Source: Planctomyces sp. (GTDB lineage Bacteria > Planctomycetota > Planctomycetia > Planctomycetales > Planctomycetaceae). Taken from it: a stretch of DNA of 52,592 nt. Under the pieces are notes generated by a model. It did not search any database and was not told where the DNA came from. It saw only the letters and a list, made by a program, of their open reading frames with translations. Each line of letters begins with the position of its first letter. The first letter of the stretch is position 1. The DNA is taken from contig JAIXUU010000209.1 in NCBI GenBank assembly GCA_027483405.1, forward strand, positions 1-52,592, read 5' to 3'. The translations under genes were made by a program, and so were the position numbers. Below, in pieces: positions 1 to 42,757 of this stretch.

Positions 1-1087
1 AGACATCTTCGAGTCCCCGGGGAAGCTGGCGGACTCCGTCGAAATCGCTGCCGATCCCCACATGTTCGACACCAGCCACTTTGGCAATATGGACAATATG
101 ATCGACGACATCGTTCAGGGTACCGACATCCTTCTGGTTGGCTTTGAGTCGCTCCGTGGGGACTATGTAGCCAGACATAAAATTGACCATGACGATGCCG
201 CGATTGGCGGTGACGCGTCTGAGGATCACATCGGAGACATTGCGCGGGTGATTGCAGATCGCTTTGGCCGAGGAGTGCGAGAAGATCACGGGGGCTGTGG
301 TGATATTGAGTGCATCCAGCATCGTCTCTTCGGAGACATGCGAAAGATCGACGAGCATTCCCAGTCGATTCATCTCGCGCACGACTTCTTCGCCAAACGG
401 CGTGAGACCTCCATGTTGAGGTTGATCGGTGGCGGAATCGGCCCATTCGATCGTTTTCGAATGGGTTAACGTCATATAGCGAACACCCTCACGATAGAGT
501 TGCTGCAAAATGGGAATCGAGCATTGAATGGAATAGCCACCTTCCGCCCCCATGAGCGAGGCGATTTTTCCTTGTGCGACAATCCGTTCGATATCGGCTG
601 AAGAGTAGGCCAGTTCGAGTTGATCGGGATACTTCTGGGCGAGCTTCCGGACGATCTGGATCTGCTCGAGAGTTTGAGTCAGAGATGTGCCTTGCTGGTA
701 AGTATCGGCGGGGACATAGACCGACCAGAACTGAGCCTTTAACCCTGACTGTTTCAGTTTCGGGAAATCGGTATGAAGCAACGGTTGCGGCATCGTGAGA
801 TCGAGTCGATCGACAGAGCCTTTGGCGAGTTTATGGATCTGCCAGGGGAGATCATTATGCCCGTCGAAAAGCATCCCTGAAAAATGAATCTCGCGGGTCA
901 GAGCATCGAGATCTGCTTCGCTGAGAGTCCTGGCAACTGATGCTGAGTCTGATGAGGCTTGGGGACCCAGAGAATCCTCGCTGGCAACTAGATCAGTCAT
1001 GATAAGACTGAGGATAGCCAGAACGAGTCGCGAAGACGTGTGAATCAGTGTGCCTCTTCTCCGGGAAGATGTCTGACGATGGATCAT
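1..1087 (-). CDS. Membrane dipeptidase, peptidase family M19 (C-terminus outside window)
   Basis: A secreted zinc dipeptidase of the renal dipeptidase type, expected to hydrolyse dipeptides outside the cytoplasm. Reading the minus strand from ATG 1085-1087 gives 362 codons running off the window's left edge. The N-terminus has basic residues (SSRRRG) followed by a hydrophobic stretch (LVLAILSLIM), consistent with a signal peptide. Family motifs follow in order: DGHNDLPW (first metal-binding HxD), GAEGGYSIQ, THSKTIEW, LVDLSHVSEETM, IFSHSSAKAICNHPRN and, near the edge, GIGSDFDG. These cover most of the TIM-barrel metallo-core; only the last part is missing. It is followed on the same strand only outside the window, so its operon context is unknown. 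The family assignment is secure; true substrate is not determined. Confidence 0.9.
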   Translation of the reverse strand, partial: MIHRQTSSRRRGTLIHTSSRLVLAILSLIMTDLVASEDSLGPQASSDSASVARTLSEADLDALTREIHFSGMLFDGHNDLPWQIHKLAKGSVDRLDLTMPQPLLHTDFPKLKQSGLKAQFWSVYVPADTYQQGTSLTQTLEQIQIVRKLAQKYPDQLELAYSSADIERIVAQGKIASLMGAEGGYSIQCSIPILQQLYREGVRYMTLTHSKTIEWADSATDQPQHGGLTPFGEEVVREMNRLGMLVDLSHVSEETMLDALNITTAPVIFSHSSAKAICNHPRNVSDVILRRVTANRGIVMVNFMSGYIVPTERLKANQKDVGTLNDVVDHIVHIAKVAGVEHVGIGSDFDGVRQLPRGLEDV

Positions 1088-1210
1088 TTCGCTTGGGGCC
1101 TGAAATTGTTCATGGTCAAATTCATGACAAATGAACGATGAAAATACTGGCAAGGGTTCTGGCGCGAGCGGCCACCCAAATCTTCTCGAATCTATAGAAT
1201 TCCACTCGAA

Positions 1211-6234: not shown

Positions 6235-6267
6235 GTGTGCCATGCTTGCGGCTCGGAGCAAGCATGC
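6235..6267. repeat. Palindromic repeat after comEC (copy 1)
   Basis: A 9-bp perfect hairpin, CATGCTTGC (6241-6249) with GCAAGCATG (6258-6266), lies between the converging comEC and hydrolase genes. The sequence GTGTGCCATGCTTGCGGCT recurs almost unchanged, inverted, at 42721-42757. It has no U-run on either side, so it looks like an interspersed palindrome rather than a classic terminator, though it could still affect 3' ends. Confidence 0.55.
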
Positions 6268-15228: not shown

Positions 15229-16215
15229 ATGGCCAGGCGGCTCATACTTGAACTGAAAGATGGCGATAACGTTGATGAGACGTTTCTGGTGGCAGATCGT
15301 CAGTTGCGTGCCAATCGCAATGCAGCGCTGTATCTGAATGTCGATCTCCGCGATAAATCGGGGGTGATCAATGGCCGCATGTGGAATGTCTCAGAAGAAT
15401 CTGTCGCACACATTCAGGCCGGTCAGTATGTGCGAGTGCGGGGAAAGGTGCAGCTTTTTCAGGGCGTCTTGCAACTGATCCTTACGGGAGCACAGCCAAT
15501 CGATGCGGCGACGATCGATCCGCTCGATTTTCTGCCGGAAACGACAGCAAATATCGAGCAGTTGATGTCCCGCTTGCGGGAACATCTGCTGAAAATCGAG
15601 TCGGTACCACTGAGAACGTTGTGTGAGTGCTGCCTGCTCGATGAAGAACTGATGGAAAAGTATGCGAAGGCACCGGCCGGCATCAAGGCTCATCATGCCT
15701 ACCATGGGGGATTGCTGGAGCATGTCGTGACGCTGATGGATCTGGCCCGCAAGGTGGTTGAGGTTTATCCGACCCTGGATGCAGATCTGCTGGTCTCCGG
15801 GGTCTTCTGGCACGATATCGGCAAGCTTCGCGAACTGAGTTATGAAACGTCCTTTGCCTATACGGATGAAGGACAGTTGATCGGGCATCTGCAGATTGGT
15901 GTCGAGATGCTTTCCGAGCGGATTCGCGAAACGGAGCAGCTATCGGGCGAAAGGTTTCCCGAAGAGCTGTCGTGGCGTCTCAAGCATCTGATTCTGAGTC
16001 ACCATGGAAGCTATGAGTTTGGCAGCCCGCGTTTGCCAATGACGCCCGAAGCGATGGCGCTCCACTTATTAGATAACCTCGATGCCAAGTTGCATGAGTT
16101 CATGCGGGCGATTTCCGAAGACCCGCATGGCGAATCGCACTGGACGCTGTTTTTACCAAGGCTGGATCGCAAGCTGTACAAGACACCGACTGATGCTTCA
16201 AAGCGACTGGAGTAA
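15229..16215 (+). CDS. yhaM: YhaM-type 3'-5' exoribonuclease (OB fold plus HD domain)
   Basis: A 328-residue protein matching the YhaM/Cbf1 architecture: an N-terminal OB-fold nucleic-acid binding domain (residues 1-95, with LNVDLRDKSGVINGRMW and VRVRGKVQLFQGVLQL) and an HD hydrolase domain. The HD metal ligands are visible as HHAYHGGLLEHV (H165), FWHDIGKL (H195, D196), H220 and LILSHHGSYEFG (about 254-262). In Firmicutes YhaM is a Mn-dependent 3'-5' exonuclease acting on short RNA and DNA ends. The start is fixed by AGGAG five bases before the ATG. Function by homology is likely but substrate preference in this organism is inferred only. Confidence 0.85.
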   Translation: MARRLILELKDGDNVDETFLVADRQLRANRNAALYLNVDLRDKSGVINGRMWNVSEESVAHIQAGQYVRVRGKVQLFQGVLQLILTGAQPIDAATIDPLDFLPETTANIEQLMSRLREHLLKIESVPLRTLCECCLLDEELMEKYAKAPAGIKAHHAYHGGLLEHVVTLMDLARKVVEVYPTLDADLLVSGVFWHDIGKLRELSYETSFAYTDEGQLIGHLQIGVEMLSERIRETEQLSGERFPEELSWRLKHLILSHHGSYEFGSPRLPMTPEAMALHLLDNLDAKLHEFMRAISEDPHGESHWTLFLPRLDRKLYKTPTDASKRLE

Positions 16216-16222
16216 GGTTTTG

Positions 16223-16355
16223 TCGCAGTGTGTCGGATAGATGGGTGTGGCACGACCCTGACGGCCCCAAAATCAAAACACTGCGAAAGGGCGTGGTCTT
16301 TGTCTTGTTCGATTCATGTTCACGCCCTTCGGAAGACCTCAGGGACATGCCACAC
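16223..16355. other. Nested inverted repeats with pseudoknot-like topology
   Basis: Three pairs of arms lie in 133 bp between yhaM and the MFS gene. A: TCGCAGTGT (16223-16231) with ACACTGCGA (16278-16286), perfect 9 bp. B: 17-nt arms 16245-16261 and 16339-16355, pairing 8 + 6 bp around one small mismatched region. C: AAGGGCGTG (16287-16295) with CACGCCCTT (16321-16329), perfect 9 bp, directly abutting the right arm of A. A and B interleave, so full pairing needs a pseudoknot. It is either a structured RNA in the yhaM 3' region/MFS leader or a mobile palindromic repeat; sequence alone does not decide. Confidence 0.45.
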
Positions 16356-16432
16356 GACTCTCTATATAATGTGATGTAAATATCATTGTGAGAAATGATC
16401 GAAACAAGACGGCCGGTGTGGGTCGAGTTTAG

Positions 16433-17686
16433 ATGAATCCTGCGAAGACTCCAGCAGCCCCGAGCCTCTCTGAAACCCAGCACAACATCTATGACCGGGT
16501 CTTCTGGCTGGCGTACCTGGCAAATATTCTGGCTGTGATGGCCAATGCACTGACTTTTCGATTTGCCGAACTGGTTCACTATCTCGGCGGGAACGAGCAG
16601 ACCACGGGCAACATTGTTAGTGTGGGATTGATTGTCGCTGTGCTCGCGCGGCTCGTGCTTTCCAGCAGCATTGATTATTACGGCACCCGGCTCGTCTGGA
16701 CGCTCTGTTCGGCTTTATTCACCGGAGGAAGCCTCGTCTTTCTCTTGGCCACAGGGCTGGGCTGGCCGTTGTATGTCGCCAGAGCCGCGTTTTATACCGG
16801 GTTGACGGGGATGTTCGCTTGCTCGATGACACACATCCAGAACCATGTGCCACTCAGCCGCAGAACCGAGGTGATTGGCAATCTGGGAAGTAGCGGATTT
16901 GTGGGGATGATCATCGGCTCTAACATTGCTGATCAGGTGGTGCGATGGATTCCTGATCTGCATGAACAGTTTTATGCCCTCTTTGGCGGGGCGGCGGCGA
17001 TCGGTCTGGTCTATTTATTGCTCATCCGGCAATTCCCGCAGACGGGGCATCATGAACCGATGACAGAGCCGCAGTCGGCGGTGCGATTGCTATATCGATA
17101 CTGGCCGGGAGCGGTTGTGCTGGCTGCCATGATGATGGGACTGGGGCAGACGGTGACGACGGTTTTTCTGACTCGCTTTGCGACAGAGCGCGGGCTGAAC
17201 GGGATTGCGATTTTCTTTTCGGCCTATGCCATCAGTGCGTTCTGCTTCCGGATCAGTGTGCGGAACTGGGGTTGGACAATTGGTCGGCGGTGGATGCTCT
17301 TTCGTGGCTTGATGGGCCAGACAGCGGGCCATCTCATGATCCCATTCGTGACAGAGGACTGGCAGCTCCTGATACCCGCGATCATCTGTGGTTTTGGGCA
17401 TGCAATTTTGTTTCCGGCTGTGGTATCGCTGGGAGCAGGTGCTTTTCCCGTGTCGGCCCGAGGGACAGGGACGGCCATCATCCTGGGGATGACCGATCTT
17501 GGCGGTCTCGTCTTCGCCCCGTTTCTGGGCTGGATCATCGACGAAGCCGGCTTCTTCTGGATGTTCGCGACCAGCGCTTCGAGCGCATTCCTCGTCGGGT
17601 GTTTATACCTCGTCGTCGCCAGTCGGCATCCCGATGAAGAATCCCAGCACGGGCGGGTAGCGAGTGGTGTCGGCACAGCACCCTGA
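16433..17686 (+). CDS. Major facilitator superfamily transporter
   Basis: A 417-residue polytopic inner-membrane protein with about twelve hydrophobic segments, starting with VFWLAYLANILAVMANALTF and ending FWMFATSASSAFLVGCLYLVVAS. The pattern of two six-helix halves, the central cytoplasmic loop around residues 195-215 (RQFPQTGHHEPMTEPQSAVR) and the charged RxxxxRRT-type turn (PLSRRTEVIGNLGSSGFVG) match MFS secondary carriers. No substrate-specific motif was recognised. The preceding intergenic region holds the nested inverted repeats at 16223-16355, about 80 nt upstream of the start, which could be its leader. It converges with the DUF2459 gene. Confidence 0.85.
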   Translation: MNPAKTPAAPSLSETQHNIYDRVFWLAYLANILAVMANALTFRFAELVHYLGGNEQTTGNIVSVGLIVAVLARLVLSSSIDYYGTRLVWTLCSALFTGGSLVFLLATGLGWPLYVARAAFYTGLTGMFACSMTHIQNHVPLSRRTEVIGNLGSSGFVGMIIGSNIADQVVRWIPDLHEQFYALFGGAAAIGLVYLLLIRQFPQTGHHEPMTEPQSAVRLLYRYWPGAVVLAAMMMGLGQTVTTVFLTRFATERGLNGIAIFFSAYAISAFCFRISVRNWGWTIGRRWMLFRGLMGQTAGHLMIPFVTEDWQLLIPAIICGFGHAILFPAVVSLGAGAFPVSARGTGTAIILGMTDLGGLVFAPFLGWIIDEAGFFWMFATSASSAFLVGCLYLVVASRHPDEESQHGRVASGVGTAP

Positions 17687-42720: not shown

Positions 42721-42757
42721 AGCATGCCAGCTCGAAGCCGCAAGCATGGCACACAGA
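42721..42757. repeat. Palindromic repeat (copy 2) between kinase and ruvA
   Basis: Inverted, slightly degenerate copy of the comEC-downstream palindrome (6235-6267). On the minus strand it begins TGTGTGCCATGCTTGCGGC and then diverges in the right arm. Confidence 0.5.

Follow-up and report, generated by a model that had tools for sequence, protein, structure and literature searches.

The structured element at 16223-16355, upstream of an MFS transporter gene in Planctomyces sp., is with high confidence an inverted, heads-out pair of two repetitive extragenic palindromic (REP) units of the GTAG/GTGG kind. It forms a BIME-like doublet with the architecture of a REPIN and was probably spread by a RAYT transposase. 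The pair lies between two genes of the window, by which we mean the whole 52,592-nucleotide stretch of DNA analyzed, and its parts are collected in Table 1. A first-pass annotation had described the same bases as a pseudoknot-like element, either a novel cis-RNA that regulates the transporter or a mobile repeat that folds. Of these alternatives, the latter is supported by the dispersed copies of the repeat and by a RAYT gene bracketed by two of them; movement itself we infer.

Table 1. Features at and around the element, named according to the REP reading (positions are those of the window).
Feature	Position	Strand	Description
Upstream gene	15229-16215	+	OB-fold and HD-domain protein, YhaM-like; 211.5 bits, under the YhaM equivalog cut-off of 460
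Arm pair A	16223-16231/16278-16286		9 nt, 100%
5' arm of stem A	16223-16231		flank outside the repeat; complement 16278-16286 in the loop of unit 1
Arm pair B	16245-16261/16339-16355		17 nt, 88%, two mismatches
Arm pair C	16287-16295/16321-16329		9 nt, 100%
Heads-out REP doublet (REPIN/BIME-like), whole	16245-16355		arm B forms its outer ends and arm C its inner stem
REP unit 1, long-loop subtype	16247-16300	+	56.5 bits with model R1
Unit 1, parts	foot 16247-16250; stem 16251-16254/16292-16295 and 16256-16259/16288-16291; bulge 16255		GTGG foot; one bulged base; 28-nt loop
Spacer between units	16301-16315		15 nt; 17 nt in the other two close pairs of the genome
REP unit 2, 12-nt-loop subtype, inverted	16316-16353	-	48.5 bits with model R1
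Unit 2, parts	foot 16350-16353; stem 16321-16328 with 16341-16344 and 16346-16349	-	GTGG foot
Downstream gene	16433-17686	+	MFS transporter

All three arm pairs of the earlier description, A, B and C, are present exactly where they had been placed, with A and B interleaved and C inside B, adjoining the 3' arm of A. To estimate their chance level, the 133 bases were subjected to dinucleotide shuffling 1000 times. One shuffle gave a 17-nt pair with two mismatches or fewer; exact 9-nt pairs turned up in 36 shuffles, never more than one per shuffle. Of 1050 real 133-base segments of the contig, 49 contained such an exact pair, and 2 contained more than one. The claim that so dense an arrangement is unlikely by chance holds against the shuffles for B and C together, but not for A alone, which is near chance level. 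The 5' part of A is flanking DNA outside the repeat that probably matches 16278-16286 by chance, and by eye 16223-16231 is absent from the other repeat copies listed. Because the 5' arm of A lies outside the repeat, the 'pseudoknot' is a repeat hairpin plus one arm that is probably fortuitous. The pseudoknot, which depends on A, is therefore given up, although stem A is unchanged in the sister species G001.

Read as single units, the two halves of the doublet have eight of eight (unit 1) and seven of eight (unit 2) stem positions joined by Watson-Crick or G-T pairs. Folded singly as DNA they do no better than shuffles (z of -0.58 for unit 1 and -0.76 for unit 2); the two units that flank the RAYT gene on contig C384, discussed below, reach z of -2.70 and -4.34. 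As RNA, the + strand of the element folds unremarkably (z -1.37) and the - strand more stably (z -3.16). The four matches obtained from Rfam for 16000-16600 all stay well below the gathering score. These values bear on the proposal of a structured cis-regulatory RNA, akin to a pseudoknot or riboswitch, that would sit in the leader of the MFS mRNA and control the transporter. That the arms do interleave, with A conserved in G001, speaks for such an RNA, as does the position of the element between co-directional genes, where it might share a transcript with the upstream gene; against such an RNA stand the near-chance level of arm A, the modest + strand fold and the Rfam result.

The repeat is abundant in its own genome. 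When 151 bases of the element were compared by BLAST with the 5.36 Mb assembly (487 contigs), 54 matches were obtained, self included. Units start with GTGGCACG-N-CCCT and end with AGGGCGTGG, with 12, 14 or 28-31 nt between, and their common anatomy is a GTGG foot followed by a hairpin of 4+4 bp with one bulged base. From 31 aligned units we built the covariance model R1. GTGG starts 29 of these units, the remaining two reading TTGG and GCGG, and across the alignment the eight pairs of the stem are formed in 97.9% of cells. Compensatory change was looked for in the genus alignments and none was found; the stem is simply conserved and varies too little. With R1 the genome yields at least 51 matches at E<=0.1, spread over many contigs, a number that may be low since the search scored 150 of 1862 candidates. 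The weakest two of the 51 listed reach 28.8 and 20.8 bits. Probably a single copy, seen at two contig ends, accounts for the matches on contigs C142 and C479.

Arrangement varies among these copies. Close heads-out pairs with a spacer of 15-17 nt occur three times among the matches listed, in the window and on contigs C34 and C284. A fourth heads-out pair, on C384, has a gene between its units, which lie 713 nt from each other, and one head-to-tail pair is 115 nt apart. Most matches of the own genome are single units and doublets do not prevail; that only three close pairs stand among the 51 matches listed may weaken the case for the doublet as the mobile form.

Placement relative to genes, judged by ORFs of at least 90 aa alone, was examined for 35 of the 51 copies: 20 lie between ORFs, 14 inside and one overlaps an ORF, ten of the 14 copy-containing ORFs being shorter than 190 aa and possibly spurious. 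Among the ten genes beside nine other copies are those for a sigma factor, a glycosyltransferase, a cyclophilin, an enolase-like protein, a ZIP transporter and another MFS protein; two of the ten lack a Pfam match. On the strength of these ten genes, of which two are for transporters, we reject a link of the repeat to transporters.

Further palindromes were noticed near the copies. One, GGGTGGCAGGGGTCGGATGTCTTCATCCGCCCCCTG in L008, recurs with variations beside long-loop and medium-loop units (L008, L011, L018, L028), and a third type, GGGTGGCCCGGCCAACTCGTGGCCGGGTTG, lies downstream of the repeat in L009; both probably represent further REP families. In the window, GCAAGCATGGCAC occurs exactly at 6237-6249 (-) and 42740-42752 (+), and with up to two mismatches there are three matches where 1.88 are expected. 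It is part of another palindromic repeat that is also found in the flanks of several copies, and by eye a close variant lies in the gap upstream of the MFS gene in genome G002.

The site was compared with those of three sister species, G001, G002 and G003. In G001 both units are found at the same place before the MFS gene (51.6 and 43.3 bits), with 107 of 115 bases identical to the own site and 1202 of 1251 in the MFS gene. Among the changes in the arms, one converts a G-C into a G-T pair in B, one restores a pair of unit 2, and one breaks a pair of C and, jointly with another change, also a pair belonging to unit 1; none of the arm changes between the two sites is compensatory. In G002 and G003 the YhaM-like and MFS genes are adjacent and the element is absent, R1 giving no match at E<=1 in either site locus. 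The doublet of contig C34 is present in G001 and G002. That of C284 is missing from its slot in G001, G002 and G003, where other sequence is found (the G003 locus has one match of 12.8 bits, outside the slot). By eye, the slot in G001 and G002 holds a different inverted repeat (GGGTCCGC...GCGGACCC). The pattern suggests that several repeat families have occupied one intergenic slot in succession. Neither excision nor a target-site signature was seen at the sites compared, and the C284 slots offer no clean empty site, so that no target duplication is readable from them. Such turnover between species is in keeping with mobile repeats, not with a leader RNA that is conserved.

Taken with the folding results, the comparison leaves the regulatory RNA extremely improbable. 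The first-pass annotation had named beforehand two observations that would count against a new cis-RNA for the transporter, and both were made: copies are dispersed, the ten genes examined beside them being mostly not for transporters, and the own site and that of G001 differ by no compensatory change, while G002 and G003 have no unit before the MFS gene at all. On the REP reading, the copy before the MFS gene would have been inserted before the split from G001, or else it would have been lost in G002 and G003, and the doublet would now be drifting, with no visible constraint on pairing.

A repeat that is a REP by origin could also have been taken into local service, as a stabilizer or attenuator at the 3' end of the upstream mRNA or as part of the MFS promoter. 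Consensus scans give this idea some substance: a promoter-like GGGACA, 17 nt, TATAAT lies at 16342-16370 (10 of 12 positions; shuffled mean 0.2), its first hexamer inside unit 2, and there is one weak terminator-like site (shuffled mean 0.4). Simple scans of this sort are, however, weak evidence in planctomycetes. Moreover, G001 differs at the final base of both hexamers (16347 and 16370), and G002 and G003 keep the MFS gene without the doublet. We consider such a local role unlikely. Between the doublet and the MFS start, a small inverted repeat at 16382-16399 (ATCATT-GTGAGA-AATGAT) is a possible operator.

A pointer to the origin of the repeat comes from contig C384, where a RAYT gene is bracketed by two inverted repeat units at 421-458 (+) and 1172-1208 (-), both of the 12-nt-loop type, like unit 2 of the window. 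The frame scores 87.9 bits with NCBIfam NF047646 REP_Tyr_transpos (cut-off 80) and 23.7 bits with Pfam Y1_Tnp (cut-off 23). Its ORF extends over 250 aa from a TTG at 392, and an ATG at 557 would give a product of 195 aa. The upstream unit lies inside the longest ORF and is outside the gene only if the start is the ATG at 557, a choice that the alignment with relatives suggests as the better fitting one. H73 and H75 of the HUH motif are invariant in seven aligned RAYTs. The C384 protein carries YIHLNPV, and in this motif the candidate catalytic tyrosine is present in six of the seven rows and replaced by histidine in one (L094). We infer that this enzyme gives the repeats their mobility. As a RAYT (TnpA-REP), an HUH/Y1 transposase of the IS200/IS605 superfamily, it would bind single-stranded DNA at the GTGG foot and hairpin, nick it there, and carry REP units or doublets to intergenic sites.

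The same locus bears on another mobile origin, a miniature inverted-repeat element (MITE) of an ordinary insertion sequence with a DDE transposase. Inverted ends and dispersed copies would be expected of a MITE as well; yet single units outnumber pairs, each of them can fold into the same hairpin, and the gene that such ends enclose codes for a RAYT, which makes a MITE a very remote prospect.

Two further Y1_Tnp genes were seen in the own genome, L031 on contig C214 and L032 on contig C58. The C214 gene scores 116.6 bits as a REP-associated tyrosine transposase. An R1 match at E<=1 was looked for at both loci and none was found; the C214 transposase may serve another REP family.

Beyond its own genome, the REP family is found in related bacteria. 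At E<=0.01, R1 gives 60 matches in G001, 22 in G002 and 53 in G003, and at this threshold 10 of 40 genomes, the own one included, have a match, with none in 15 genomes from other families of the class. In G001 the RAYT orthologue is 91-93% identical, lies in two pieces in different frames, and is bracketed by two matching units. The RAYT gene of G011, from another genus of the same family, has one R1 match on each side, inverted, of 28.0 and 19.7 bits. That of G024, also from another genus of the family, has a heads-out pair on each side, two of the four units being weak (E 0.063). Around the RAYT gene of G007 the flanks are inverted repeats starting with GTGGCACG, with a single, weak R1 match (13.8 bits, E 0.12).

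A correlation between the number of repeats and the cognate gene has been published; in this set it does not stand out clearly. The gene accompanies the repeats of the own genome (at least 51) and of G001 (60, gene split). In G003, with its 53 matches, there is no close RAYT, the best being 38% identical in a genome that is 88% complete. G002 has no close RAYT either, and G019 has 53 matches and no RAYT match, again in a genome 88% complete. Repeats without a close RAYT possibly reflect gene loss after spreading, or a missing contig.

We also analyzed the flanks of distant relatives. Searching GTDB genomes with the aligned RAYTs gave 298 relatives, of which the best 80, mostly from planctomycetes and phycisphaerae, were kept. 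Upstream and downstream flanks match as inverted repeats (score >=15) at 57 of the 77 loci with enough flank, compared with 6 of 154 pairs when flanks were swapped between loci. For the count of heads, three loci from our own analysis were added, one of which repeats L144, to give 83. The outward head G(G/T)GTG-N-CA is present in 136 of 166 flanks (shuffled mean 6.95), and at 61 of the 83 loci both flanks have it; the head in reverse orientation occurs in 50 flanks too. An exact stem of at least 7 bp follows 111 of 154 heads, as against 2.4% of shuffles, and the arms comprise 52 distinct sequences. This is strong evidence for a hairpin that persists across distant RAYT loci while its bases change.

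Two types of foot can be told apart among the 68 loci classified, GTGG in 52 and GTGC in 16. Hairpins with the GGGTGCCA head, which corresponds to the GTGC foot, lie on both sides of many RAYT genes in planctomycetes (within L142-L221, for example L159, L163, L171 and L187). In the RAYT proteins the residue before LTFS is glutamate in 39 of 51 GTGG rows, and phenylalanine in 10 of 16 GTGC rows and in none of the GTGG rows (L157 left out). On the tree, phenylalanine changes twice and foot type five times, or six with L157 left out. The association of these residues with the foot provides three independent pairs on well-supported branches and six on all branches. Foot type tracks this residue mostly by shared descent, and we treat the association as a lead only. 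The WQxG residue gives no clean split between GTGG and GTGC loci. From these comparisons one may tentatively sketch a planctomycete RAYT clade with a foot code of its own, in which the extended head would be GGGTG(G/C)CA, GTGC would depart from GT(A/G)G, and the last base of the foot would be read via the residue before LTFS; the doublet of the window would then be a product of the GTGG class. We offer this model as a speculation with a rather low chance of being right as a whole.

How the family compares with known systems can be stated at several points. R. baltica is, like the organism studied here, a planctomycete. In the portions of PMC3733652 consulted, planctomycetes are already listed as carriers of GTAG REPs, with several families in R. 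baltica, and REPs of the GTAG superfamily are described as imperfect hairpins with an unpaired GT(A/G)G at one end, dispersed as single units or as heads-out dimers mostly 20-100 bp apart. The repeat analyzed here likewise combines a GTGG foot, a self-complementary stem and many dispersed copies. It differs from those REPs in the extended head GGGTG(G/C)CA found in its RAYT clade and in its long-loop subtype, whose loop of 28-31 nt contrasts with the 2-20 bp given for published GTAG REPs in the same portions (PMC3733652). An automated rule for REPs, as worded in the part of PMC6006769 at hand, asks for a fully paired basal stem of 7-20 and a loop of 2-5, or a bulge of 1-3 and then a second stem. 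The present units, with 4+4 pairs, a single bulged base and loops that measure 12, 14 or 28-31 nt, depart from that wording; the rule is a search filter, and the same part of the paper reports REPs that it missed (PMC6006769).

Similarly, a RAYT gene bracketed by two inverted REPs has been described as a REPtron in the excerpts of PMC2817692 and PMC6006769 available to us. Inverted cognate flanks are likewise found at C384, if the start is the ATG at 557; here the clade is a planctomycete one, and GTGC takes the place of GT(A/G)G in 16 of the 68 classified loci. For Pseudomonas fluorescens, the pages of PMC3116915 that we drew on describe the REPIN as two inverted REPs which, with a short spacer between them, fold up as a single long hairpin. 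The doublet of the window has the same composition and forms one hairpin in the same way; the difference is that in this genome close doublets number only three among the 51 matches listed. Among the literature matches listed, none joined repetitive extragenic palindromes to Planctopirus or Planctomyces limnophilus.

The element of the window is a further member of the known REP/BIME kind. Its assignment removes a false lead for a new riboswitch and provides a clear set of REP and RAYT for this genus. The RAYT/REP pairs with GTGG and GTGC feet can be used for testing how RAYTs choose their feet.
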